DNA of 64,000 bases from Janibacter cremeus (GTDB lineage Bacteria > Actinomycetota > Actinomycetes > Actinomycetales > Dermatophilaceae). Position 1 is the first letter of the stretch. The number at the start of each line of letters is the position of its first letter. This document shows positions 13,677 to 46,385 of the stretch, one piece after another. Location: contig NZ_JACCAE010000001.1 in NCBI RefSeq assembly GCF_013409205.1, forward strand, positions 248,001 through 312,000, read 5' to 3'. Position numbers and translations under genes: made by a program. A model generated the notes under the pieces. It ran no database searches and had not been told where the DNA came from. It was given only the letters and a program-made list of their open reading frames with translations.

Positions 13677-14408
13677 ATGCCTGCGGACTCCCCCACGATC
13701 CTCGCCACCTCCGGTGGCTACCTCCGGCCCGAGCGCGGTGACCTCGCCTTCGCCGGTCTCGTCCACCACGCCGTCGACCTGTCGGGCACGACCTCGCAGC
13801 CGAAGGTCTGCCAGCTCGGCACCGCGAGTGGCGACCCGCGCCCCTTCAACGCCGCCTTCTGCGAGGCCGGGGCCGTGGCGGGCTACGACGTCACGAACCT
13901 CAACCTCTTCCCGATGCCGAGCATCGAGGACATCGAGGGTCATCTGCTCGCACAGGACGTCGTGTGGGTCAATGGCGGCTCCGTCGCCAACCTCCTCGCC
14001 GTGTGGCGCGTGCACGATCTCGACACGATCTTCCGTCGCGTGTGGGAGGCGGGAGTCGTGCTCGCCGGAGTGAGCGCCGGCTCGATCTGCTGGTACCGGG
14101 GCGGGACGACCGACTCCTTCGGGCCCGAGCTGCGGGCCGTCACCAACGGCCTCGGCCTGCTCCCCTATGACAACGGCATCCACTACGACAGCGAGGAGTG
14201 TCGCCGCCCGACCGTGCACGCGCTCGTCGAGGACGGCACGCTGCGCGAGACGCACTGCACCGACGACGGCGTCGGCCTGGTCTACCGCGGGAGCGAGCTG
14301 GTCGAGGCCGTCACCGAGCAGGACGGCAAGAGCGGCTACATCGTGGCGAAGGGGGATGACGGCCGGGTGGTCGAGACTCCCCTCGACACCCGCCGGCTCC
14401 CCCGCTGA
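13677..14408 (+). CDS. Peptidase E (S51 family, type 1 glutamine amidotransferase fold)
   Basis: A 243-residue cytoplasmic serine peptidase of the PepE/cyanophycinase superfamily, which as a family cleaves Asp-X dipeptides or isoaspartyl bonds. The nucleophile elbow is AGVSAGSICW with Ser133, preceded by VWVNGGSVANLL and followed by an HYDSEECRRP segment likely to hold the catalytic histidine. The length is normal for bacterial peptidase E. It is expressed from a leaderless promoter and is followed after 32 bases by lipB, which has its own promoter box. Confidence 0.9.
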   Translation: MPADSPTILATSGGYLRPERGDLAFAGLVHHAVDLSGTTSQPKVCQLGTASGDPRPFNAAFCEAGAVAGYDVTNLNLFPMPSIEDIEGHLLAQDVVWVNGGSVANLLAVWRVHDLDTIFRRVWEAGVVLAGVSAGSICWYRGGTTDSFGPELRAVTNGLGLLPYDNGIHYDSEECRRPTVHALVEDGTLRETHCTDDGVGLVYRGSELVEAVTEQDGKSGYIVAKGDDGRVVETPLDTRRLPR

Positions 14409-34048: not shown

Positions 34049-34825
34049 ATGAGCCATCGACGCATCCTCATCACCGGATCGACGGGCGGAGTGGGTTCGA
34101 TCCTCACGCAGCGCCTGAAGGACGAGTACGACGTCACCGGCCACGACCGGACCACCCGACCGGACGCCGACCCGGTGGTCCTCGGCGCCGACCTCGCCGA
34201 CTACGACGCCGTGCGCAGTCTCATGGACGGTATCGACACGGTCGTCCACCTCGCCGGTGCCGCCTCCCCCGAGTCACCGTGGGAGGCGGTGCTCGACGCG
34301 AACATCATCGGTACCCGCAACGTGCTGGAGGCAGCGCGTGACGCCGGCGTGCAGCGGGTGGTCTACGCCTCGTCCAACCACACGATGGGCATGTACGACC
34401 GCTACGAGCAGTGGCCGGTCTACCCGGACACTCCCCCGCGCCCGGACTCGTTCTACGGGGTGTCCAAGGTCTTCGGCGAGACGCTCGGGCGCTACTACCA
34501 CGACGAGTACGGCTTGTCGGTCATCGCGTTGCGCATCGGTTGGGTGGCCCAAGACCCCACGATCACCGGCGTCGACGTGCTGCACGCGATGTGGCTCAGC
34601 GAGGCGGACACCGCCCAGGTCGTGCGGTGCGCCATCGAGGCGGACGTCGACTTCGGGATCTACTACGCGATCTCCGACAACCCCAACCGCCGCTGGAGCA
34701 TGACCAACACCAACCTCGAGCTCGGCTACCGTCCGCGGGACTCGTGGGCCGACTTCGCCCCCGAGGGCGAGCCGGTCGTCACGGGTGGCGTGGACGTCCC
34801 GGACAGCTGGCCGAAGGGGTCGTGA
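34049..34825 (+). CDS. NAD-dependent SDR oxidoreductase, uronate dehydrogenase-like
   Basis: A 258-residue extended SDR. The NAD fingerprint ITGSTGGVGS is at residues 8-17, VVHLAGAASPES and YASSNHTMGMY follow, and the catalytic pair is YGVSK (Tyr and Lys). The SNHTMGMY block and short length resemble uronate dehydrogenases, which oxidise glucuronate or galacturonate to lactones; the substrate here is not proven. Its last 100 bases overlap the 3' end of the convergent sulfatase-like gene. That is unusually long for two real genes, but both frames look coding to their ends. Confidence 0.86.
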   Translation: MSHRRILITGSTGGVGSILTQRLKDEYDVTGHDRTTRPDADPVVLGADLADYDAVRSLMDGIDTVVHLAGAASPESPWEAVLDANIIGTRNVLEAARDAGVQRVVYASSNHTMGMYDRYEQWPVYPDTPPRPDSFYGVSKVFGETLGRYYHDEYGLSVIALRIGWVAQDPTITGVDVLHAMWLSEADTAQVVRCAIEADVDFGIYYAISDNPNRRWSMTNTNLELGYRPRDSWADFAPEGEPVVTGGVDVPDSWPKGS

Positions 34826-36432
34826 CCTACGGCGGGTGGCGTCGAGAACGCCCGCAGGAAGTGGTCCCGGACGATGTCCATCCGCCACTGCGGCGACTGC
34901 TCCTGCGGCACGAGCCCGGGGGTCCACAACCACCACGCCATCGCGTCCCGCACCGCCGGGTCCCCGGTGATCAGCGACACCGGGACGTCGTGGCCGGCCT
35001 CCTCGCCGGCGACGTGGCCCCACGGCTGGTGGTCCCCCACGAGCAGCACGACGAGATCGGGGTCCGGGTGCTCGACGACGAAGGAGATCACCGACTCCAG
35101 CGAGTACCCGATCGACGCGGCGTAGCGCGAGCGCACGTCGTCATCACCCTCGTCGGCGCAGCCGGGCATGCACGCGTACACCGACCCGTCGCCGACGCCC
35201 TCCCACGGCACCTGGGGCGGTGGTTGCGGCCACGGGTTGTGGCTGGTGACGAGGTCGATCTCCGCCATGACGGGCCCATCGCCCTGCGAGAGCACCTCCC
35301 GCTGGAACCACGACAGCGTGTACTGGTCGGGCACGCCACCCCACCCCAGCGGTGGCCCCCGGTAGTCCAGGTCGTCGGCGGCGTACAGCTCGTCGAACCC
35401 GTAGAACGCCTGCCCCTGCGGCCACTGCTCCTGCACCGCCGGCTGCACGAAGCTCGTGCGCCACCCTGCGTCGTCGAACGCCCGGGTCAAGGTCAGCCGG
35501 TCCGAGGAGAGCAGCTGATCGTGGCGGCGGTCGCTGTCCACCCACAGCCCCGACTGCAGGCTCGCGTGCGCCAGCCACGACCCCGCGCCGAAGGTCGGCG
35601 ACGTCAGCCAGGCGCTGCGCGCCGTGAACCCCACCTCGCCCAAGGACTGCTCGCCGGCGGTCAGGACGGGGGTGACCCCCTTCGCCAGCTCCGGGTCTCT
35701 CAGCGCCGCCCGGCCGTAGCTCTCGACGAAGACGACGAGGACGTCCTTGCCCGCCAGTCCCCGCAGCGACCCGGCTCGCGCCGCGACGGGGTCGGTGGCG
35801 ATGGCTTCGGCGAAGACCCCCTCGTCGCGGTAGTCGTTCACGCCGTCGGCGACGTGGTCGTGGACGAGCTGCGCCGTGGCTCGGGAGGTCACCGGCTCGC
35901 CGGCCACCTGCGCACCCGTGGCCGCGAGCGTGCCGCCGGCGAGTGTCCCGACGAGCAGCACCACGACGGCCCGGGTGCGGTGGACGGTCACCAGGCGCGC
36001 CAGCCGCGCCATCGCGAGCACCAGCAGGGCCGCCAGGAGCAGCGTCGCCACGACCGACGCGACGACGGCGAGCACCGCCCAGCCCGGCCCGGCCCACCCG
36101 GAGAGCACCTCATACCCCCGGACGAGGTTGGTCAGGTCGTAGTAGACGTGGAACCGGCGGTCCGCCACGACGGAGAAGCCGATGTCCAGTGCCTTGAGGA
36201 CCACGACGAGCGCGAGCAGTGCCCCCAAGGTCATCGCCACCGCCGGCCGGGCCACCCGCGGCACGACGATCAGCACCGCGAGCCCCACCAGGAGCGTCAA
36301 CGGCAGGCTCACCAGCGAGACCCACGTCAGCTGCGCCACCGACGACGGCAGCACCAGCGCACCCCACACGAGGGCAGCGGCGAGCACGCTCCAGCCCGCG
36401 GCCGCGAGCCGACCTGCTCTGTCCCGAACCAT
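34726..36432 (-). CDS. Membrane sulfatase / LTA-synthase-like enzyme
   Basis: A 568-residue protein with about five transmembrane helices in its first ~175 residues and a large extracellular alkaline-phosphatase-superfamily domain. That domain starts DVLVVFVESYGR near residue 228, as in LtaS/phosphoglycerol transferases (NVIYIHLES-like), with a later LLVGDHQPWGH metal motif near residue 480. LtaS relatives transfer phosphoglycerol or phosphoethanolamine from lipids to glycans on the outer face. It is divergent from the pterin/glycosyltransferase operon and is probably its membrane-modifying partner. The Thr nucleophile position is not certain from sight. The C-terminal tail overlaps the SDR gene. 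Confidence 0.85.
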   Translation of the reverse strand: MVRDRAGRLAAAGWSVLAAALVWGALVLPSSVAQLTWVSLVSLPLTLLVGLAVLIVVPRVARPAVAMTLGALLALVVVLKALDIGFSVVADRRFHVYYDLTNLVRGYEVLSGWAGPGWAVLAVVASVVATLLLAALLVLAMARLARLVTVHRTRAVVVLLVGTLAGGTLAATGAQVAGEPVTSRATAQLVHDHVADGVNDYRDEGVFAEAIATDPVAARAGSLRGLAGKDVLVVFVESYGRAALRDPELAKGVTPVLTAGEQSLGEVGFTARSAWLTSPTFGAGSWLAHASLQSGLWVDSDRRHDQLLSSDRLTLTRAFDDAGWRTSFVQPAVQEQWPQGQAFYGFDELYAADDLDYRGPPLGWGGVPDQYTLSWFQREVLSQGDGPVMAEIDLVTSHNPWPQPPPQVPWEGVGDGSVYACMPGCADEGDDDVRSRYAASIGYSLESVISFVVEHPDPDLVVLLVGDHQPWGHVAGEEAGHDVPVSLITGDPAVRDAMAWWLWTPGLVPQEQSPQWRMDIVRDHFLRAFSTPPAVGHDPFGQLSGTSTPPVTTGSPSGAKSAHESRGR

Positions 36433-36448
36433 GACGCCTCCGTGGTCC

Positions 36449-36454
36449 TACGAT
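36449..36454 (+). promoter_or_regulatory. Candidate -10 box of the pterin/glycolipid operon
   Basis: TACGAT lies 44 bases before the GTG at 36498 in the short divergent gap with the sulfatase-like gene. It is the only clear TAnnnT box in this gap. Confidence 0.4.
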
Positions 36455-36497
36455 AGGGAGGACAGCGGCAGCGCCGTCGCGTCAGGAGGTGTCGGAG

Positions 36498-37502
36498 GTG
36501 AGTGCCCCGGCCCGCCACGCGCGCGCCTACTGGGTGGTCGAGCCCGGACGCGGTGAGATCCGCTCCGCGCCACTGCCCTCCCCCGGTCCCGACGAGGTCC
36601 TCGTGCGGGCGCTCTTCTCGGGGATCAGTCGCGGCACCGAGGCCCTCGTCCTGCGCGGGGAGGTCCCGCCGGACCAGTACGAGGTGATGCGGGCGCCGTT
36701 GCAGCAGGGGGACTTCCCGGGCCCGGTGAAGTACGGCTACCTGTCCGTCGGGGTCGTCGAGGACGGGCCGGCGCACCTGCTCGACCGGACCGTCTTCTGC
36801 CTGCACCCGCACCAGACGCGCTACGTCGTCCCGGCCGACGCGGTCGTCCCCGTCCCCGACGACGTTCCCGCGCAGCGAGCGGTGCTCACGGGCGCGCTCG
36901 AGACGGCGGTCAACGGTCTGTGGGACGTCCCGCCGCTGATCGGTGACCGGATCAGCGTCGTCGGTGGCGGGATGGTGGGGTGTTGTGCCGCACGGCTGCT
37001 CGCGCGTTTCCCCGGGGTCGAGGTCACCCTCGTCGACGTGGACGACGCCCGCGGGTCGGTGGCAGAGGCGCTGGGGGTGGGCTTCGCCCGACCGGAGCAG
37101 GCGAAGGGGGGCCAGGACCTCGTCATCCACACCAGCGCGTCCTCGGCCGGCCTGCAGACGTCGCTGGACCTGCTGCGCAGTGAGGGCACCGTGCTCGACC
37201 TCAGCTGGTACGGCACCCGCGGCGTCGAGCTCGCCCTCGGCGGCAGCTACCACTCCGGGCGGCTGCGGATCCGCTCCAGCCAGGTCGGCACGGTCGCCGA
37301 CGCCCGGCGCGGGCACCGCTCCCCGACCGAGCGCACGGCGGTCTCGCTCCAGCTGTTGCGGGACAACGCCTTCGACGTGCTGCTGACGGGGGCGACCCCC
37401 TTCGCGCAGCTGCCGCAGGTCATGACCGAGGTGTGCGAAGGGCGGCGCCCGGCCATCTGCCACGTCGTCACCTACGAGGGAGAGAGTGAGAGGCCCGGAT
37501 GA
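36498..37502 (+). CDS. MDR-family zinc-type alcohol dehydrogenase-like oxidoreductase
   Basis: A 334-residue medium-chain reductase. The GroES-like half includes [23 protein letters not shown]; the Rossmann half has [20 protein letters not shown] near residue 155, then [18 protein letters not shown]. The usual catalytic zinc cysteine after the first strand is replaced by Ser in SGISRGTE, as in the bacteriochlorophyllide/threonine-type clade often called zinc-binding but lacking the classic ligands. The GTG at 36498 is preferred over that at 36489, which lies within the AGGAGG ribosome site. It overlaps the next gene by four bases and heads the operon. Confidence 0.86.
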
Positions 37503-37906
37503 AACACGCGAAGTTCTCCGCGACGGTGCGCGACCACATGATGATCGCGCACAGCCTGGGCGGTGAGGTCTTCGGTCCGGCGCAGCGGCTGCACGGCGCG
37601 ACGTACGTCGTGGACGCGACCTTCCACAGCGCGACGCTGACACCGGACGGGATCGTCGTCGACATCGGCCGGGCGGCCGAGGAGCTGAAGGACTCGCTCG
37701 CCGGGTTGAACTACCGCAACCTGGACGAGGAGCCGGACTTCGCCGGTCGCAACACGACGACCGAGGCGCTGGCCTTCGCCGTCGCCGAGCAGCTCGCCCG
37801 GCGGGTGGCCGAGGGCCGTCTGGGGCCGGGCGAGCACCTGAGCCGGATCACGGTCACCCTGCACGAGTCGCACATCGCCTCCGCGAGCTGCGAGGTGGTG
37901 TTGTGA
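37499..37906 (+). CDS. 6-pyruvoyl-tetrahydropterin synthase / QueD homologue with degenerate active site
   Basis: A 135-residue T-fold protein. PTPS/QueD features are MIAHSL (first zinc histidine), [26 protein letters not shown], an NTTTEALA substrate segment and [14 protein letters not shown] with the pterin-anchoring glutamate. Against E. coli QueD several key residues differ: the catalytic Cys of CGRLHGH is Ala (AQRLHGA), the second zinc histidine is Ala, and the LDHHYLN catalytic histidine region reads LNYRNLD. So it binds a pterin or related GTP-derived compound but probably runs different chemistry. ATGA overlaps couple it to both neighbours. Confidence 0.85.
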
Positions 37907-38952
37907 GCACCGTGCACGTCGTGCTGCCGGGCGACATCGACGACCCCCTCCATCCCAGCGGGGGGAACGCCTACGACCGGGAGGTGTGCACCGGCCTGGC
38001 GGCGCTCGGGTGGAGCGTGCGCGAGCACCCGGTGGCCGGGTCGTGGCCGCACCCGGAGCCGGAGTCACGGGCGGGGTTGGCGACGACCTTCGCGGGACTG
38101 CCTGACGGCGCGGTGGTGCTGCTGGATGGACTGGTCGCGCTCGCGGCGCCGACGCAGACGGCCGTGGCGAGCGAGCGGCTGCGGGTGGTCGTGCTCGCGC
38201 ACATGGTGGGCCCGGACGAGGACGCCCCGGCGGAGCGGGTCGCGCTGCTGTCCGCGGCCGGGGTCGTGACGACGAGTGCGTGGACGCGGGACCAGCTGGT
38301 GGAGCGGCACGCCCTGCCGGCCGAGCGGGTGCACGTCGCCGAACCGGGCGCTCACCACGCCGAGGCCACCGTCGGCAGCGAGGCCGGCGGTCGGCTGTTG
38401 TGCGTCGGGCCGATCTCCCGGGCCAAGGGTCACGACGTGCTCCTCGAGGCCCTCGCGGACGTCGCCGACCTGCCGTGGACGTGCACGTGCGTCGGGCCGC
38501 TCGACCGGGACCCGGTCCTGGTGGGCACGCTGCGCGATCGTGTCGAGCAGCTCGGCCTGACCGACCGGGTCACCCTCACCGGGGCGCTGCCCGACCTGTC
38601 CGAGCAGTACGCCGACACCGACCTGCTGGTCCACCCCACCCGAGCCGAGGCCTACGGGATGGTCGTCACCGAGGCCCTCGCCCATGCGGTGCCGGTCCTG
38701 GCCTCCGACGTCGGCGGGGTGCCGCTGGCGCTGGGGCACGCCGAGAGCCACCGGCCGGGGATGCTCGTGCCTCCCGGGGACCCGCACGCCCTGGCCGAGG
38801 CGCTGCGGCTGTGGCTCGACGACGCGGACACCCGTGCCCGGTTGCGCAGTGCCGCCGGTGCGCGGCGGCGGGAGCTGACGCCCTGGCGGGAAACGGTCAC
38901 CCGCGTGGCGCAGGTGCTGAGTGAGGTGGCGGATGGCCCGCGCAGTCCCTGA
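37903..38952 (+). CDS. GT4-family glycosyltransferase
   Basis: A 349-residue GT-B fold enzyme that transfers a sugar from a nucleotide donor. The C-terminal half has [20 protein letters not shown] and [29 protein letters not shown], with the GT4 E-x7-E pair and donor loop. The N-terminal acceptor half includes [12 protein letters not shown]. No membrane helix is present. The GTG start overlaps the preceding stop (GTGA), and its own end overlaps the next gene by 20 bases. In the cluster it may glycosylate the pterin/pyrimidine product or a lipid acceptor. Confidence 0.9.
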
Positions 38953-40084
38953 CCCCCCACGCTCCCCGAGCCCCACACGCTCCCTGAGGTGCGAGCGCCC
39001 CCCGGGCGTGAGCCTCGAAGGGACCCGAGCGCACTACGCGAGGTGGCTCCGCCCCGCCGTCGGCGCAGCCATCCTCGCGGTGCTGCTGTGGCAGGTGGGC
39101 GCCGAACCCTTCGTCACCGCGCTGACCGAGGTCACGTGGCCGGCGCTGCTGGCCGCGCTGGCGATCACGGTCGTGACGACGGTGTGCGCCGCGTGGCGGT
39201 GGAGCGTGGTCGCGACCGGTCTGGGCGTGCGGATCGCACCTCCCGCCGCGGTCACCGCGTACTACCGCTCGCAGTTCCTCAACTCGGTGCTGCCGGGCGG
39301 GGTCCTCGGCGACGTCCACCGCGCGGTGCGCCACGGCCACGACGTGGACCGGATGGGACGGGGGGTCCGCTCGGTGGTCTGGGAGCGCGTCCTCGGGCAG
39401 GTGGTCCAGGTGGTGCTGACCGTGGTCGTGCTGGTCGTGCTGCCCTCGCCGGTGCGCGCGATTGCGGTGGTCGCAGTCGTCGGTCTGGTGGCCGTGGGTC
39501 TCGCGGCCGGAGTCATCCGGTCGCTGAGGCGCGAGCGCCCCCCGGTGGCTGAGGCGGGAGCGCCTCCGGTGGCTGAGGTGGGAGCGCCCCCGGGCGCGAC
39601 CCTCGAAGCCACAACCGTCGTCATCCTCACCTCCGTCCTGGCCGTGCTCGGTCACGTCACGGTCCTGCTCGTGGCGATGTCCGCGGCGGGTGTCGAGGTC
39701 TCGTTGGGTCGGCGGGTGGCGTTGGCGCTGATCGTGCTGCTGGGGGCGGCGATCCCGGCGAGCCTCGCCGGGTGGGGCCCGCGCGAAGGGGTGGCCGCGT
39801 ACGCCTTCGAAGCGGCCGGTCTGGGCGCGGCAACCGGGGTGAGCGTCGCCGTGCTCTACGGGGTGCTCGCGCTCGTGGCCACGCTGCCCGGCGCGCTCCT
39901 CCTGGTGACTCCTCGACCCCGGTGGCTGACACGCGACTCCAACCCAACCCCACGCTCGCTGAGGTATGAGCGCCCGCAGCGTCTCTCCCGGTGGTTAAGG
40001 CGCGAGTCCGCCCCAACCCCCCGCTCGCTGAGGTGTGAGCGCCCGCTAGGGCGCGAACCTCGAAGCGACAGAGCCCAAACATGA
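38933..40084 (+). CDS. Lysylphosphatidylglycerol-synthase-like (UPF0104) membrane protein carrying in-frame repeats
   Basis: A 383-residue protein with about eight transmembrane helices and the UPF0104/LPG-synthase core: YYRSQFLNSVLPGGVLGDVHRAVRHG, WERVLGQVVQV and, later, GWGPREGVAAYAF. Relatives act as lipid flippases or glycolipid transporters. Three clusters of the dispersed palindromic repeat lie inside the frame: at residues ~16-30, ~196-224 (reading PPVAEAGAPPVAEVGAPPG, a hydrophilic loop) and over the last ~55 residues. All keep the frame open but add non-native Arg/Pro/Glu sequence. The ATG at 38933 is used; a GTG at 38921 is possible. ATGA overlap with the next gene. Confidence 0.82.
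   Translation: MARAVPDPPRSPSPTRSLRCERPPGVSLEGTRAHYARWLRPAVGAAILAVLLWQVGAEPFVTALTEVTWPALLAALAITVVTTVCAAWRWSVVATGLGVRIAPPAAVTAYYRSQFLNSVLPGGVLGDVHRAVRHGHDVDRMGRGVRSVVWERVLGQVVQVVLTVVVLVVLPSPVRAIAVVAVVGLVAVGLAAGVIRSLRRERPPVAEAGAPPVAEVGAPPGATLEATTVVILTSVLAVLGHVTVLLVAMSAAGVEVSLGRRVALALIVLLGAAIPASLAGWGPREGVAAYAFEAAGLGAATGVSVAVLYGVLALVATLPGALLLVTPRPRWLTRDSNPTPRSLRYERPQRLSRWLRRESAPTPRSLRCERPLGREPRSDRAQT
38979..39020 (+). repeat. Dispersed palindromic repeat, copy C (in coding sequence)
   Basis: GCTCCCTGAGGTGCGAGCG at the left and GTGAGCCTCGAAG at the right, inside the N-terminal codons of the UPF0104 gene. Confidence 0.65.
39519..39612 (+). repeat. Dispersed palindromic repeat, triple array D (in coding sequence)
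   Basis: Three left arms follow each other: GGTCGCTGAGGCGCGAG, GGTGGCTGAGGCGGGAG and GGTGGCTGAGGTGGGAG, then one right arm CCTCGAAGCCAC. The array lies in frame between two membrane helices of the UPF0104 protein. Confidence 0.75.
39920..40070 (+). repeat. Dispersed palindromic repeat, compound array E (gene 3' end)
   Basis: Left-arm variants at 39920 (GGTGGCTGACACGCGA), 39954 (CGCTCGCTGAGGTATGAG), 39990 (GGTGGTTAAGGCGCGAG) and 40022 (CGCTCGCTGAGGTGTGAG), closed by AACCTCGAAGCGAC. The array encodes the arginine-rich tail of the UPF0104 protein. Confidence 0.7.
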
Positions 40085-40767
40085 CCCGCCCCTACACCAC
40101 CCTCAGCTGCGCCGTCTCCCTCGACGGCTATCTCGACGACACGTCACCGCAGCGGCTGTTGCTCTCCAACGACGCGGACTTCGATCGGGTCGACCAGGTC
40201 CGCGCGGACAGCGACGCGATCCTCGTGGGCGCCTGCACCCTGCGCCAGGACGACCCTCGGCTGCTCGTGCGCAGCGAGGCGCGGGTGCGCGAGCGGCTCA
40301 CGGCCGGACGTACGTCCTCGCCGGTGAAGGTGACGGTGAGCGAGCGGGCCGACTTCGACCCGGGCGCGAGGTTCTTCACCCGAGGCGATGTCGACAAGCT
40401 CGTCTACTGCGGGCGGGATGGGTTCTCTGACGCTCGTGCCCGGATCGGGTCGGCAGCGACGGTCGTCGACGCAGGCCGACCGGTGGCCATGGGATGGGTG
40501 TGCGCCGACCTGGCCGAGCGGGGTGTCGAGCGCCTGCTCGTCGAGGGTGGCGGGACGGTGTTGACGCAGTTCCCCGCGCAGGGGTTGGCCGACGAGCTGC
40601 ACCTGGTGGTGGCGCCCTTCCTCGTCGGGGACTCGCGGGCACGGCGGTTCATCGACGACGGGCACTTCCCGTGGCGGGCCGACTCCCCCGCGCGTCTGGT
40701 CGAGACGCGCGCGATCGGTGACGTGGTGCTGCTGCGCTATGCGCTGTCCGAGCGCTGCCCGGGCTGA
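40081..40767 (+). CDS. Dihydrofolate reductase-fold protein, RibD C-terminal type
   Basis: A 228-residue reductase of the RibD_C family, which reduces the ribosyl group of pyrimidine intermediates derived from GTP in riboflavin synthesis. It shows LSCAVSLDGYLDD, ILVGACTLRQDDPRLLVR and LLVEGGGTVLTQF (NADPH site), then LHLVVAPFLVGDS. There is no N-terminal deaminase domain, so it is not a full RibD. With the PTPS homologue in the same operon, it points to a GTP-derived heterocycle as the cluster's substrate. ATGA overlap upstream; its 3' end overlaps the convergent fusion gene by 31 bases. Confidence 0.88.
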   Translation: MTRPYTTLSCAVSLDGYLDDTSPQRLLLSNDADFDRVDQVRADSDAILVGACTLRQDDPRLLVRSEARVRERLTAGRTSSPVKVTVSERADFDPGARFFTRGDVDKLVYCGRDGFSDARARIGSAATVVDAGRPVAMGWVCADLAERGVERLLVEGGGTVLTQFPAQGLADELHLVVAPFLVGDSRARRFIDDGHFPWRADSPARLVETRAIGDVVLLRYALSERCPG

Positions 40768-42206
40768 GGTGTGAGGGCGTCCGCGCCCGCCCCTCGAAGC
40801 GCGGGCTGAGCGACCGCGACGATCGCGAACTTGCGGATCCTGCCCGACCGCAGCCACTCGCTCCAGAGGCGGTGGGAGGTCAGCAGGTGCTCGATCCGGC
40901 TTGGGCCGATCTGGGCGGTGATGGCCGGCTCGCGCGTAGTCAACTCGGTCAGCAGCGAGTCGACGACCTCGCGGTGGGCGGCGCTGCGGTCCCGCTGCGA
41001 GGTGATGGTGAATCCGGACCGCTCGAGCACCTCGTGCAACTGGGGCAACGGGATCGGCCAGACGGTGTCGGCGGCGGGCATGGCAGCACGTTCGTGCTCG
41101 ATGAGGGGCTGGCCCTCCTCGACGGTGAAGGCGAACCGGCCACCGGGTGCCAGTGCCGCGTGGACCTCGCGCAGCAGGGTCTCCTTGTCGCGGAAGGCGA
41201 GCATCGTCTCCAGCAGGAGGACTATGTCGAAGAGCCCGTGCGGGAGGGGCGGAATCTGCCCGACCTCGTAGTGGCAGGTCACGTCGCCGGCACGGGCCCG
41301 GGCCGTGGCCACAGCGGAGTCGTCGGCGTCTACGCCGAGCAGCTCGCAGCCGGACTCGCTCGCGATGAGGCGGCCGGGTCCGCCTCTGCCGCAGCAGAGG
41401 TCGAGCACGCGCGTGCCCGGAGCGATGCCCGCTGCGGCGGCGAGGTCGCAGATCTGGCTGGCGGTCATGAATCCCTGCTGGTCGACGAACTCCCCCGACC
41501 CGTAGGCAGCGCGCCGTGCCTCCTGGAGTGCGTTCTCGGTGGGGTGTCGGTGGCGCCACAGCCACCAGACGTCCCGGCCGAAGGACTCGGCGATCAGGGC
41601 GAGTGCGACTAGCAGTGCGACGACCATGACGGGTGATGGGACGACACCGGCGGTGGCGACGACGAGGACGATGCTCGTGACGGCGGTGACGACCTTGCGC
41701 CAGTACCGCGGCGGCAGCTGCGCGCGCATCCACGGAAGGACCCACCCGGCGGCGCCGAAGGCGTAGCGCGCCAGGCCGATCAGCAGCACCCACCAGCCGT
41801 AGGTGGGGGCGGCCCAGATGCTCAGGACGAGCATGAGCGCGGCGTCGGCCTCCCCGTCGAACCGCGCGCCGAAGGGGGTCTCGCTCCCGGTCCACCGCGC
41901 TACCCACCCATCGACGAGGTCGAGGAAGAGCGAGACCGCCGCGAGGGCCGTGATGGTGATCGTCCACGGTGAGCCACCGACGACCAGAGCAGCGACCGCA
42001 CACGTGAGCGTGGCTCGAGTGACCGTCACCAGATCAGCAGGGTCGAGCGCATCAGCGTTGTAGTGACGCATCCCCAAGACGACGAGGACATCCAAGGCGA
42101 CGGCCGCAGCAAGAGCCACGCCCCACCCGACGGGACCCCACGATGCCAGCAGCCCAATGGCCAGGAGCAAGAGTGCCTGCGGGAGCAGCACCGTCCGAAG
42201 ACCCAT
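40737..42206 (-). CDS. CDP-alcohol phosphatidyltransferase fused to a SAM methyltransferase
   Basis: A 489-residue two-domain protein. Residues ~1-225 hold about six membrane helices and the complete CDP-alcohol phosphotransferase motif (DLVDGWVAR, then GARFDGEAD; D-x2-DG-x2-AR-x8-G-x3-D-x3-D). Residues ~245-470 are a class I methyltransferase with motif I VLDLCCGRGGPG, GVDADDSAV and FDIVLLLETM. The first half joins a polar alcohol to a CDP-activated lipid or sugar in the membrane; the second probably methylates the same product. No frameshift or stop separates them, so the fusion is real in this sequence and links both steps. ATG at 42206. Confidence 0.87.
   Translation of the reverse strand: MGLRTVLLPQALLLLAIGLLASWGPVGWGVALAAAVALDVLVVLGMRHYNADALDPADLVTVTRATLTCAVAALVVGGSPWTITITALAAVSLFLDLVDGWVARWTGSETPFGARFDGEADAALMLVLSIWAAPTYGWWVLLIGLARYAFGAAGWVLPWMRAQLPPRYWRKVVTAVTSIVLVVATAGVVPSPVMVVALLVALALIAESFGRDVWWLWRHRHPTENALQEARRAAYGSGEFVDQQGFMTASQICDLAAAAGIAPGTRVLDLCCGRGGPGRLIASESGCELLGVDADDSAVATARARAGDVTCHYEVGQIPPLPHGLFDIVLLLETMLAFRDKETLLREVHAALAPGGRFAFTVEEGQPLIEHERAAMPAADTVWPIPLPQLHEVLERSGFTITSQRDRSAAHREVVDSLLTELTTREPAITAQIGPSRIEHLLTSHRLWSEWLRSGRIRKFAIVAVAQPALRGAGADALTPQPGQRSDSA
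40761..40810 (+). repeat. Dispersed palindromic repeat, copy F
   Basis: GGGCTGAGGTGTGAGGGCG at the left and CCCCTCGAAGC at the right. It spans the stop codon of the RibD-type gene and the last codons of the convergent fusion gene. Confidence 0.65.
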
Positions 42207-42240
42207 CTGCCGAGTCTATGGAAGGCGCACCCGCCCACAA

Positions 42241-42286
42241 CGCTGGCTGAGGTGTGAGTCCGCGCAGCGGGCGAGCCTCGAAGCGA
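42241..42286 (+). repeat. Dispersed palindromic repeat, copy G
   Basis: CGCTGGCTGAGGTGTGAG at the left, GCGCAGCGGGCGAG in the middle, CCTCGAAGCGAC at the right. It fills most of the divergent gap before the methyltransferase gene. Confidence 0.7.
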
Positions 42287-42305
42287 CTTGCGAGAAGATG
42301 GCCCC

Positions 42306-43124
42306 GTGTCCGACGAAGTCGCCCGCGCCGATGCCGACTGGCTCGCTCTCCGCGAACCAGCCGACGCAGCAGCCCGCTCGACAGAGCTCGTGGAAGCCCT
42401 CCGCCCCCACCTGCCGACGGATGGGTTGGTCATCCACGACCTCGGCTGCGGCACCGGCTCGATGGCCCGCTGGCTCGCACCACAGCTGCCGGGCAACCAG
42501 CGCTGGATCGGCTACGAGCGCGACGAGGACCTCCTCAACCGCGCAGCCGCTGCTCCCCCACCGGTGTCACTCGACGGACTCACAGTCACCACCGAGACGC
42601 GCCTACGCGACATCACCCACCTCCCCACCGAGGACCTCGACGGCGCGTCACTGATCACCGCGTCGGCGCTGCTCGACATGATGACGCGCGAGGAGCTCGA
42701 GCGCATGGTCGCGAGCATCGCCGCGGCCGGGTGCCCGGCACTGATCACGCTGAGTGTCATTGGCCAGGTGGACCTGGCACCGGCGCACCCCCTCGACGAC
42801 CAGATCGCCGTCGCCTTCAACGCGCACCAGAGGCGCGACACCGGCCACGGGCCCCTGGCTGGCCCAGACGCTGTATACGTGGCCGCGCACGCCCTAAGGC
42901 TGGCTGGCTACACCCTTCACCTGACCCCGAGCCCATGGCGACTGGACTCAAGCGATACCGCCCTGCTGAAGGCGTGGCTCAAGGGCTGGGTCGACGCTGC
43001 TTGCGAGCAGGACCCTTCCCTCCGCGCCGATGCTTCCGAGTACCGAGGTCGCCGCATCCAACAGATCGGGAGCCGTGAGTTGACGGCGATGATCCACCAC
43101 CGGGAACTCCTCGCCCTGCCATGA
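42306..43124 (+). CDS. Class I SAM-dependent methyltransferase
   Basis: A 272-residue methyltransferase with motif I VIHDLGCGTGSMARWLAP, an acidic GYERDEDLLNRA for SAM ribose binding and ITASALLDMM as motif IV-like sequence; the C-terminal half lacks a clear relative, so the acceptor is unknown. The GTG at 42306 follows GAGAAG. Position next to the fusion gene and the pterin/glycosyltransferase operon suggests it modifies the same product. A small-molecule methylase is more likely than an RNA one, but this is inference. Confidence 0.83.
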   Translation: MSDEVARADADWLALREPADAAARSTELVEALRPHLPTDGLVIHDLGCGTGSMARWLAPQLPGNQRWIGYERDEDLLNRAAAAPPPVSLDGLTVTTETRLRDITHLPTEDLDGASLITASALLDMMTREELERMVASIAAAGCPALITLSVIGQVDLAPAHPLDDQIAVAFNAHQRRDTGHGPLAGPDAVYVAAHALRLAGYTLHLTPSPWRLDSSDTALLKAWLKGWVDAACEQDPSLRADASEYRGRRIQQIGSRELTAMIHHRELLALP

Positions 43125-43639: not shown

Positions 43640-45078
43640 CGTAGTGCCTCACGTCAAGATGCCCGCGAAATGAGATCCGTGCCTCAGGTAGGAAGTGCCC
43701 GCGAAAGTGGGTGGCGTGTCAGCTGGCTCGCACGCGGATGCCTTTGTGGACGTTGGGCAGGGCTGAGGGGAAGCTGGCCAGGTAGAGCTGTTCGGTCTTG
43801 TCCTTGGCCAGCAGGACCAGTCGCTCTTGCAGGTCGCCGATCCGGCGGGCGAGCTCGGCGGGGTTGAGCGTGTCGCGGTAGGCGGTCAGCTCGGCCTGCT
43901 GGGCGGGCGAGAGGACGTCGGCGGTCAGGAGCCGGTCCAGCGGGGTCTGGGGCGGGTCGTACAGGCGGGTGCGGCGCCCGTTGTGGTCGCTGCCGTACCC
44001 GATCGGCTTCTTCGTCGGGGTCAGGTAGTTCAGCCGGTCGTTGACCAGCGGCCACAGCCGGGCCAGGACGGCGCGTTCCTCGGGGGTGTCGTAGCGGTAG
44101 TAGAAGGCGTACTTGCGCACCAGGTGGTTGTTCTTCGACTCGACGGTGGCCTGGTCGTTCTTCTTGTACGGCCGGGACCGGGTGAAGTAGATCTTGCGGT
44201 CGGCGGCCCAGTCGATGACGGGATGGTTGAGGAACTCGCCACCGTTGTCGAAGTCGAGTCCCGTTACCGCGCAAGGGATTTCATTCACGGCGGCCTGCAG
44301 CGCGGTCAGGATGTGGGTGTGCGCGTTGTTGCGGATGGTGCGGGTGAAGACCCAGCCGGTGTGCACATCGGTCAGGTTGACCGTGCGCGCGAACTCACCC
44401 TTGAGGGTGGGTCCGCAGTGCGCGACGGTGTCGCCCTCGAAGAACCCCGGCTCGTCCTCGACCTCGTCCCCGGCCCGGCGGATGGCGATGCTCGAACGAA
44501 GCAGCGGCGAGGGCTTGGTCGTGGCGACCCCACCGATGGCGTCCTTGGCCTTGGCCGGGGCGAGGTACCGGTCGATCGACGCGGCGCTCATCGACAGCAG
44601 TTCGGTGCGTACCGCGCGACTGTAGCGATCGACGCCGTCGACGAGCTCGCCGTGGCGCTCCAGCGCGTCCAGGTGCACGCGCATCGAGACCACCAGGTAC
44701 TTCCCGCACTGCCCGCCAGAGGCGGCCCACACCCGTTGCAGCACCTTGCGCGCGTCGTAGGAGAACTTCGGCGCCCGCGGTTTGCGCATCGCCGCCGCGA
44801 CCACCCGGCCCGGCCCCGGCGGCGCCGTGGCGGCTGCGACAAGCCGGCGGCGGGCGTTGTCCCGGGACCAGCCGGTCACCGAGACCACCTCATCGAGCAT
44901 TCGGCCCCGATCCTTCTTGCTCGCCTTCGCGTACGCCTTGGCGTACTTGTTCGTCACCTCGGCACGAGAGGCCATCGACAACTCACTTCCCATGCCCCAG
45001 CAGCATCCACCGATTTCGCGGGCATTTCCTTCGTGAGGCACCGAGGGCGGTTCGCGGGCATCCTTCGTGAGTCTCGTC
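43640..45078 (-). mobile_element. Insertion sequence, DDE integrase type, copy 2 (1439 bp)
   Basis: Same element type as at 28511-29947, in the opposite orientation. The 6-bp duplication GATGCA flanks it exactly, which fixes the boundaries. Ends again carry two ~27-base units each. Sequence divergence from copy 1 shows that the two were separate insertions rather than a recent local duplication. Confidence 0.9.
43719..44993 (-). CDS. Transposase of IS copy 2 (rve/DDE integrase domain)
   Basis: A 424-residue protein of the same length and layout as the copy 1 transposase, with Asp188, Asp249 (GLDFDNGGEF) and Glu285 (NDQATVESKNN) intact. Differences cluster at residues 26-33, 57-69 and 119-158. 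The ATG at 44993 matches that of copy 1; an in-frame extension upstream reaches into the element's left end and beyond and is not likely to be translated. Nothing suggests inactivation. Confidence 0.92.
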   Translation of the reverse strand: MGSELSMASRAEVTNKYAKAYAKASKKDRGRMLDEVVSVTGWSRDNARRRLVAAATAPPGPGRVVAAAMRKPRAPKFSYDARKVLQRVWAASGGQCGKYLVVSMRVHLDALERHGELVDGVDRYSRAVRTELLSMSAASIDRYLAPAKAKDAIGGVATTKPSPLLRSSIAIRRAGDEVEDEPGFFEGDTVAHCGPTLKGEFARTVNLTDVHTGWVFTRTIRNNAHTHILTALQAAVNEIPCAVTGLDFDNGGEFLNHPVIDWAADRKIYFTRSRPYKKNDQATVESKNNHLVRKYAFYYRYDTPEERAVLARLWPLVNDRLNYLTPTKKPIGYGSDHNGRRTRLYDPPQTPLDRLLTADVLSPAQQAELTAYRDTLNPAELARRIGDLQERLVLLAKDKTEQLYLASFPSALPNVHKGIRVRAS

Positions 45079-45084
45079 GATGCA
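45079..45084 (+). repeat. Target site duplication, IS copy 2 (high-coordinate side)
   Basis: GATGCA, identical to 43634-43639. Confidence 0.85.
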
Positions 45085-45107
45085 TTGCGCACCCGATCGG
45101 CCGCACC

Positions 45108-45113
45108 TAGGCT
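45108..45113 (+). promoter_or_regulatory. Probable -10 box of the MFS transporter gene
   Basis: TAGGCT lies 42 bases before the ATG at 45156, just outside the insertion sequence, so the promoter survived the insertion. Confidence 0.45.
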
Positions 45114-45155
45114 CGGCGTCGGGCCACGGGCGATCGCACCCGTCCGGGAGGGTTG

Positions 45156-46385
45156 ATGAGGCAGGGCAGCTTGGCGCACACACGCTCTGTCGTCACCCCA
45201 TCATCCAGTCGCATTCGATCGATCTGGATCACACTCGCGGCCCTGCTGGCCGCGGGGTGGTCGACGAACCACTTCGCCGCCCTCCTGCCCGTGCTCGCGG
45301 AGGTCGCGCACATCTCCAAGCCGGGTCTGGATGCGGCATTCGGCCTCTACGCCCTCGGTCTGCTGCCGGGTCTGCTGCTCGGCGGGGGCCTGTCGGATCG
45401 TCGGGGTCGACGGCCGGTCGTGCTGACCGGGCTGGTCCTGTGCGCCGCGGGCAACGTGGTGATGCTGCTCTGGCCGACGCTGGCCGGGGTGCTGATCGGC
45501 AGGCTCGTCGTCGGCGCGGGTGTCGGTTTGGTGGCGAGTGCGGGGACTGCGTGGGCAGCCGACCAAGACTGGACGAAGGGAGCCGCCCGAGCTGGTGTCG
45601 TGCTCACCACCGGGTTCGCGGCCGGCCCGCTGGCCTCCGGGCTGATCGGTCAGTTCACCCCCGGCCGGATCGGTCTGGTGGTGGCCTTCACCGTCCCCGT
45701 ACTCCTGACCGGACTCTCGGCGCTGCTCTGCCTGTTCCCGGACCATGCGAGTGTCGTGGTTCCCGTCACGAAACCTCATCAGGCTCGCGTCGGCAGCTCA
45801 CCCCCATTCGTCGAGGACCGGCGCATCGGCCCCGCCCTCGCCGCCGCTGTGCCCATGGGGCTGTGGGTCTTCTCCTGCGTCACCGTCGCCATGATCGTGC
45901 TGACCGAGCGGATCGGTGGCCAGTACGGGGGGCCGATGCTGCCGGCGGTGGCGGCCGTCCTGGCTCTGGGCACCGGGATCCTCGTGCAGCTCGGGACACG
46001 TCGACTCGCCGGCTGGCGACCGCTCGGGGTCGTCGGCGCAGGGCTGGCGGCCATCGCCTTCGTCATCTCCGGCGTGGCCGGTGGTCAGATGAGCATCGCG
46101 ACGTTCGTCTTGTGCTCGCTCATCTTCGGGGCCGCGTACGGCCTGTGCCTCGGGCAGGGCCTGCGCGACGTCGACCGGCTCGCACCCCGCTCCACCCGAG
46201 GGCTGGTCATCGGCATCTTCTACGTTGTCACCTACACGGGCTTCGCCCTGCCCTTCGTCCTCAACACCTACGAGGACACCATCGGCGCCTCGGCGCCGAT
46301 GGTGGTGCTCGCGGGGCTCGCCGCGGCCAGCGCACTGGCCCGCCTCGTGCAGGCGCGGCGAGGTGACAGCCGTCATTTCGAGTAG
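45156..46385 (+). CDS. Major facilitator superfamily transporter
   Basis: A 409-residue membrane protein with 12 predicted helices. Between helices 2 and 3 it has the MFS signature GLLLGGGLSDRRGRRPVVLTG. Helix 4 is LAGVLIGRLVVGAGVGLVASAGTAW, and a central cytoplasmic loop around residue 210 precedes the second half. The N-terminal half resembles drug/sugar efflux permeases, but the substrate is not evident. GGGAGG lies before the ATG at 45156; a TTG at 45153 is an alternative. Confidence 0.88.
   Translation: MRQGSLAHTRSVVTPSSSRIRSIWITLAALLAAGWSTNHFAALLPVLAEVAHISKPGLDAAFGLYALGLLPGLLLGGGLSDRRGRRPVVLTGLVLCAAGNVVMLLWPTLAGVLIGRLVVGAGVGLVASAGTAWAADQDWTKGAARAGVVLTTGFAAGPLASGLIGQFTPGRIGLVVAFTVPVLLTGLSALLCLFPDHASVVVPVTKPHQARVGSSPPFVEDRRIGPALAAAVPMGLWVFSCVTVAMIVLTERIGGQYGGPMLPAVAAVLALGTGILVQLGTRRLAGWRPLGVVGAGLAAIAFVISGVAGGQMSIATFVLCSLIFGAAYGLCLGQGLRDVDRLAPRSTRGLVIGIFYVVTYTGFALPFVLNTYEDTIGASAPMVVLAGLAAASALARLVQARRGDSRHFE

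Follow-up and report, generated by a model that had tools for sequence, protein, structure and literature searches.

What might an actinobacterium make with a gene set that joins pterin- or pyrimidine-type enzymes to a glycosyltransferase and enzymes of membrane lipids? The question is raised by an eight-gene cluster in a 64,000-nucleotide stretch of the Janibacter cremeus chromosome (contig NZ_JACCAE010000001.1, positions 248,001 to 312,000), here called the window. A preliminary description of this DNA had proposed a pathway for a pterin- or pyrimidine-containing glycolipid. The best single reading, on which our judgement is evenly balanced, is a dedicated actinobacterial pathway to a glycosylated, lipid-linked pterin- or pyrimidine-type product; the observations behind it are the clustering, the enzyme families and folds, the loss of particular residues, and the joint pattern of GTP cyclohydrolase II (GCHII) and creatininase-family genes. 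All eight open reading frames (ORFs) were located where they had been described, between 34726 and 43124, and Pfam backs the families assigned to the PTPS homologue, the GT4 glycosyltransferase, the LPG_synthase_TM flippase-like protein, the RibD_C reductase (RIB7), the CDP-alcohol phosphotransferase-methyltransferase fusion and the last methyltransferase. Recognition of the MDR-type oxidoreductase is weak (ADH_zinc_N, 20.5 bits, cut-off 31.8), and the LTA-synthase-like protein, for which the Pfam scan gave zero matches, is assigned from its predicted model. The short overlaps said to link five of the genes are present in the plus-strand string MDR-PTPS-GT4-flippase-RIB7 (4, 4, 20 and 4 bases, the third being 32 if the GTG at 38921 is the start codon); the LTA-like gene is divergent, the fusion gene is convergent, and the last methyltransferase gene lies beyond the fusion.

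The preliminary description had suggested looking in other genomes for the same genes and for a co-occurring GTP cyclohydrolase, and both were found. We scanned with a PTPS alignment, named the best 80 of 565 loci, and ran eleven family profiles over all loci; the counts given here are for the 56 named loci, from 20 genera or labels, that have 8 kb or more of sequence on each side. PTPS was the query, so its presence in all 56 follows by design. MDR was found in 56/56 of these loci, GT4 in 55, the flippase in 54, the phosphotransferase in 53, the methyltransferase in 49, the LTA-like gene in 32, the creatininase-family gene in 22, and a second methyltransferase as a separate gene in three; the phosphotransferase-methyltransferase fusion occurs in the window and in locus L142. 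Among sampled genomes, PTPS matches were found in 60/394 of the class (three of them remote) and this PTPS type in 203/392 of one large genus, probably Streptomyces (one match weak), and the gene set is also present in Thermoleophilia metagenome-assembled genomes. Because the same genes cluster in many other genera, the eight genes form one conserved cluster and are not neighbours just by chance. The gene groups differ between lineages in order and position, and in several loci the phosphotransferase, LTA-like and second methyltransferase genes form a block away from PTPS, as would be expected of two co-travelling units, one (MDR, PTPS, RIB7, GCHII, creatininase) making a small molecule derived from GTP and the other (phosphotransferase, LTA-like, methyltransferases, flippase) a phospholipid or glycolipid. 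We nevertheless regard such a split as improbable, given that nearly all loci have the phosphotransferase, most of them no more than about 2 kb from MDR-PTPS, and that the window flippase gene lies inside the overlapping string. Support is good for a conserved and dedicated pathway that starts from a GCHII-type precursor.

As previously described, no GTP cyclohydrolase was found in the window cluster. The Janibacter genome is one complete 3.31-Mb contig with one PTPS, three RibD_C matches and a single GCHII match, a RibBA of the Tyr type (see below) outside the cluster. Among the relatives, GCHII (PF00925) is present in the cluster in 49/56 loci. In a GCHII tree, the cluster sequences fall into at least three deeply separated groups, long branches making the exact tree unsure; the slot thus appears to have received a GCHII on more than one occasion, an argument that GCHII chemistry is required by the pathway. 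That most relatives carry a cluster GCHII, and some a creatininase-family putative deformylase, strengthens the earlier idea of a GTP-derived heterocycle.

The Streptomyces coelicolor GCHII SCO6655 (Spoonamore et al. 2006) reportedly stops at the formylaminopyrimidine because it carries Met120 in place of Tyr. GCHII genes lying up to 11 kb from PTPS, 78 in all, were read at this switch position, the Met120 site of SCO6655. One was unreadable; the other 77 have 45 Tyr and 32 non-Tyr residues (13 Met, 16 His, 1 Cys, 1 Ser and 1 Leu). A creatininase-family gene is in the region for 30/30 genes of the Met, His or Cys type and for 0/45 of the Tyr type. None was found within 11 kb of the Ser-type and Leu-type genes; the Leu-type genome (L144) has one about 14 kb away, and a search of the whole Ser-type genome (L052, Pseudonocardia bannensis) found no cluster-type creatininase, only a weak relative of 102.5 bits. 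The L052 GCHII gene, at 14226, has other odd residues besides the Ser (GRGVELVDELRAS), and the enzyme is perhaps inactive. Cluster-type creatininase was likewise found in 0/4 genomes with GCHII-less clusters.

Passages of PMC9478397 describe BrbF of Sinorhizobium/Brucella, a creatininase-related protein, as a proven formamidase for the same formylamino intermediate, there in the service of riboflavin; the likeness to the cluster protein is one of family and of putative substrate. Because the gene tracks the switch residue and BrbF provides a precedent, the cluster creatininase is probably the deformylase needed by the Met/His-type GCHII. The cluster would thereby give a reason for a GCHII that halts at the formylamino stage, since the adjacent creatininase-family gene probably supplies the deformylation. 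Several caveats apply to this assignment. Up to 11 kb from PTPS, creatininase is confined to the non-Tyr GCHII types named above, but across whole genomes it is not: 2/9 Tyr-type genomes searched whole, both Actinoplanes (L053 and L078) with three GCHIIs each, all of Tyr type, have orphan cluster-type creatininases of 335-340 bits (Table 1), beside which no cluster genes were found in the fetched stretches. Each trait has changed only about twice on the tree. The protein fits the family model PF02633 (206 bits, cut-off 31.3) but falls far below the cut-off of the ArfB model NF033501 (34-37 bits, cut-off 180), and it scores higher on MftE than on ArfB, also below cut-off.

The best model for the window RibD_C protein is TIGR01508, at 115.3 bits with a cut-off of 186.45. 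Its solved relatives are 5xv5 (M. mazei Rib7, 99.8 bits), 6p8c (75.5), Rv2671 (45.3) and B. subtilis RibD (2b3z, 39.0), so that among solved structures it is nearer the archaeal/fungal-type reductases than RibD. Stronger RibD_C and GCHII matches sit together at 2.53 Mb in the same genome, and a third RibD_C match is at 144728; a housekeeping flavin role for the window gene was rejected on account of the stronger pair, and, with the PTPS results below, neither gene looks like a housekeeping copy. The preliminary description had named two outcomes that would refute it, homologues unclustered in other genomes or PTPS and RibD-like genes of the ordinary housekeeping kind, and neither was obtained. 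As no deaminase turned up in the conserved cluster families, the pyrimidine would keep its 2-amino-4-oxo pattern, which fits a PTPS-type site.

RIB7 is not a constant member of the cluster: it is near PTPS in 38/56 loci and not in 18. We searched 18 genomes with the RIB7 profile, 14 of them without RIB7 near the cluster, and all have a match somewhere. Fifteen genomes score at least 246 bits, two have split matches (165+135 and 145+103) and that of L056 scores 185, the next class reaching at most 126; the in-cluster RIB7 proteins of L052 and L056 are only about 30% identical to the window protein. The distal copies may serve another pathway, because some are linked to a deaminase or have another GCHII nearby. 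The distal reductase of G193 (L185) carries a fused cytidine-deaminase-type domain, and that of G688 (L193) has a deaminase gene as its immediate neighbour; GCHII is near the distal RIB7 in 4/15 fetched stretches. In these four (L185, L187, L188 and L189) the neighbour is a second, Tyr-type GCHII, and such pairs may form a second unit of flavin type. L185 and L187 also have a MarR-family gene, placed between the two genes or next to them.

Since GCHII, creatininase-family and RibD_C proteins are early flavin-type enzymes, and some distal RIB7 genes in Streptomyces-like genomes lie near a Tyr-type GCHII, the cluster might be a supplementary source of riboflavin, F420 or some other common cofactor, its membrane genes being unrelated neighbours. 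We consider this very improbable, as the conserved families lack a deaminase, RibBA and RibD-like genes are present elsewhere in the window genome, and PTPS, GT4 and MDR are foreign to flavin synthesis. Recruitment of GCHII and RibD-like enzymes outside vitamin synthesis is known from toxoflavin-type azapteridines; that synthesis is not known to involve a PTPS, GT4, phosphotransferase or LTA-like gene.

The PTPS homologue, the only one in the window genome, belongs to the PTPS/QueD fold family and matches the solved structure 3d7j, that of SCO6650. Compared with canonical enzymes, the window protein has Ala28 for Cys, Tyr72 for His and HGA for HGH, and Glu123, the ring-anchoring residue of the family, is kept. 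Ala replaces the catalytic Cys, and Tyr the catalytic His (DHKNLD motif of 1b66), in 110/110 cluster copies, whereas the outgroups L149 and L150, remote homologues near which no other cluster families were found, are canonical at both positions. The Glu is present in all 112 sequences, outgroups included. At the position of the third metal His, 103 cluster copies have Ala (Ala34 in the window), 1 has Val and 6 keep the His, these being the six distant copies. Because the catalytic Cys and His are lost, canonical PTPS chemistry is unlikely, as are roles in queuosine, tetrahydrobiopterin (BH4) or folate synthesis, given also the model scores (QueD, 31.7 bits, cut-off 89.25). The protein may instead carry out a condensation, tautomerisation or ring closure on a diaminopyrimidine.

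The remaining genes point to sugar transfer and membrane lipids. The GT4 profile is nearest 6kih and 3c4q/3c48, followed by the D-inositol 3-phosphate glycosyltransferase 7qsg; among its relatives are enzymes that use phosphorylated acceptors. In the CDP-alcohol phosphotransferase, the DxxDGxxAR...GxxxDxxxD motif and the fold are present, and the predicted model resembles phosphatidylglycerophosphate (PGP) and phosphatidylinositol phosphate (PIP) synthases, with only 20.7 bits on the PIP synthase model NF045883 (cut-off 170). The predicted LTA-like model resembles LtaS and GacH and has both the transmembrane (TM) region and the alkaline-phosphatase-superfamily fold, and, on the outside of the cell, the protein probably transfers a phosphate-linked group. 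The sole Pfam match of the flippase-like protein is PF03706, over residues 42-324 of 387; no synthase domain like that of the lysyl-phosphatidylglycerol synthase MprF was found after its TM region.

These membrane genes bear on the strongest rival, a soluble or secreted pteridine or pyrimidine glycoside, with no lipid on the ring and with membrane genes for its export or for changes to the envelope. Six loci from the same phylum, whose PTPS is 42-49% identical to that of the window over the matched part, keep RIB7-MDR-PTPS-GT4, and no phosphotransferase, flippase or LTA-like matches were found in them. Both distant loci scanned for a methyltransferase after GT4 have one, fused to GT4 in L137 and as the next gene in L147; an MFS gene is also nearby in these two loci, as would suit export of a soluble compound, and the LTA-like gene is optional in the main set. 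Set against this are the near constancy there of the phosphotransferase and flippase and, in four distant loci (L137, L139, L147 and L148), a PlsC-type acyltransferase gene close to RIB7-MDR-PTPS-GT4, likewise suggestive of a lipid; three of the four are above the Pfam cut-off and that of L137 is below. We consider the soluble glycoside rather unlikely.

For a lipid-linked product, a pathway can be proposed in which we infer the reactions, their order and the product, the last (the earlier glycolipid claim included) from enzyme types and folds. GCHII, supplied by the single RibBA of the window genome or by the cluster enzyme of most relatives, would open GTP to 2,5-diamino-6-ribosylamino-4(3H)-pyrimidinone 5'-phosphate (DARPP), directly with the Tyr type and via the formylamino intermediate and the creatininase-family deformylase with the Met/His/Cys type. 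The Rib7-like reductase would then convert the ribosyl to a ribityl chain with the 2-amino-4-oxo (pterin-type) pattern retained, and the re-tooled PTPS homologue and the MDR would turn the pyrimidine into a finished, probably pterin-like ring. GT4 would add the sugar, and the CDP-alcohol phosphotransferase would put the phosphatidyl group of CDP-diacylglycerol on the phosphorylated polyol. Finally, the methyltransferases would decorate the molecule, the LPG_TM protein would flip it and the LtaS-like enzyme would add a phosphate-linked group on the outer face. In its most specific form, which we advance only tentatively, the product would be an unrecorded class of membrane lipid with a headgroup of GTP-derived ribityl 2-amino-4-oxo pyrimidine or pterin phosphate, glycosylated and displayed outside the cell, and possibly serving as a redox or light-absorbing group anchored in the membrane; its synthesis would combine early riboflavin steps of archaeal type with a PTPS homologue that has acquired a new catalytic function. 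If the product is indeed a lipid whose headgroup is pterin-like, it would be a categorically new class of bacterial membrane component.

The first steps resemble archaeal early riboflavin/F420 synthesis (ArfA GCHIII, ArfB, Rib7/ArfC), which, as partly outlined in passages of PMC9478397, likewise has GTP opening, a separate deformylation and reduction before deamination. The cluster differs in using GCHII and a creatininase that falls below the ArfB cut-off, and in continuing to PTPS, GT4 and membrane enzymes. With the synthesis of phosphatidylinositol mannosides and teichoic-type glycolipids it would share phosphatidyl transfer to a polyol phosphate, a GT4, flipping and LtaS-type transfer, but the proposed headgroup is a GTP-derived heterocycle and the phosphotransferase has no equivalog-level PIP synthase match.

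Parts of the S. coelicolor cluster have already been studied. In a genome encoding a PTPS 99% identical to SCO6650, the genes for PTPS, GT4, methyltransferase, flippase, creatininase and a Met-type GCHII stand in a row, with MDR and phosphotransferase on the other side. This genome has three GCHIIs, two of Tyr type and the Met type in the cluster, and S. coelicolor also has three. By numbering, the six-gene row would fit SCO6650 to SCO6655, and by gene count SCO6652 would be its methyltransferase. Compared with it, the window has no cluster GCHII or creatininase and has RIB7, the LTA-like gene and the fusion protein. SCO6652 is listed in Table 3 of PMC3610822 as induced in the second mycelium (log2 0.8, 4.3 and 4.1 at 24, 48 and 72 h relative to MI), PMC2853524 names SCO6655, and the reference list of PMC3509567 cites the paper of Spoonamore et al. 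(2006) on the S. coelicolor GCHIIs. The preliminary description knew of no described system with this gene set; a solved structure of SCO6650 and published GCHIIs qualify that statement. No product was found in the open-licence PMC literature for a pathway widespread in a much-studied group. The analysis names a precursor and a gene set whose deletion should remove one compound, and makes the roles of SCO6650 and SCO6655 directly testable.

Table 1. Genes of the window cluster and the two orphan creatininase genes (positions in the window, or in the fetched stretches L200 and L201)
Feature	Position	Strand	Evidence or remark
LTA-synthase-like membrane protein, 568 aa	34726..36432	-	N-terminal TM helices and alkaline-phosphatase-superfamily domain
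MDR-type oxidoreductase, BchC-like, 337 aa	36489..37502	+	TIGR01202 bchC 41 bits, below cut-off; 56/56 loci
PTPS homologue, SCO6650 type, altered active site, 135 aa	37499..37906	+	PF01242 73 bits; 3d7j E 3.8e-46
GT4 glycosyltransferase, 349 aa	37903..38952	+	PF00534 104 bits
LPG_synthase_TM (UPF0104) flippase-like protein, 387 aa	38921..40084	+	PF03706 109 bits; alternative start ATG 38933
RibD_C reductase, Rib7-like, 228 aa	40081..40767	+	PF01872 116 bits
CDP-alcohol phosphotransferase-methyltransferase fusion, 489 aa	40737..42206	-	Pfam CDP-OH_P_transf and methyltransferase
Class I methyltransferase, 278 aa	42288..43124	+	PF13649 35 bits; family present in 49/56 loci
Orphan creatininases, Actinoplanes L053, L078	L200 9679-10362, L201 1672-2355		335-340 bits

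The window cluster is directly flanked by genes for an epimerase and a DAO-family oxidoreductase at one end and for an ABM protein and an integrase-core protein at the other; none of the four belongs to the families conserved in relatives. The integrase core domain (transposase-like) protein is encoded just past the cluster, at 43719-45179. Within the host family, one other of the seven genomes has a PTPS match, 53% identical, and the cluster is patchy; given this occurrence and the integrase-core neighbour, the cluster may move between genomes. We also noted a roughly palindromic repeat with the core GCTGAGGTGCGAGCGC, of which the window has 7 copies at up to 2 mismatches (0.28 expected), at 38976-40066, 40762-40800 and about 42245-42287. 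Six of the 7 are inside the flippase ORF, where they add repeated peptides such as SLRCERP. At up to 1 mismatch, just four other copies were found in the genome, at 843919-844150 and 72 bp apart.

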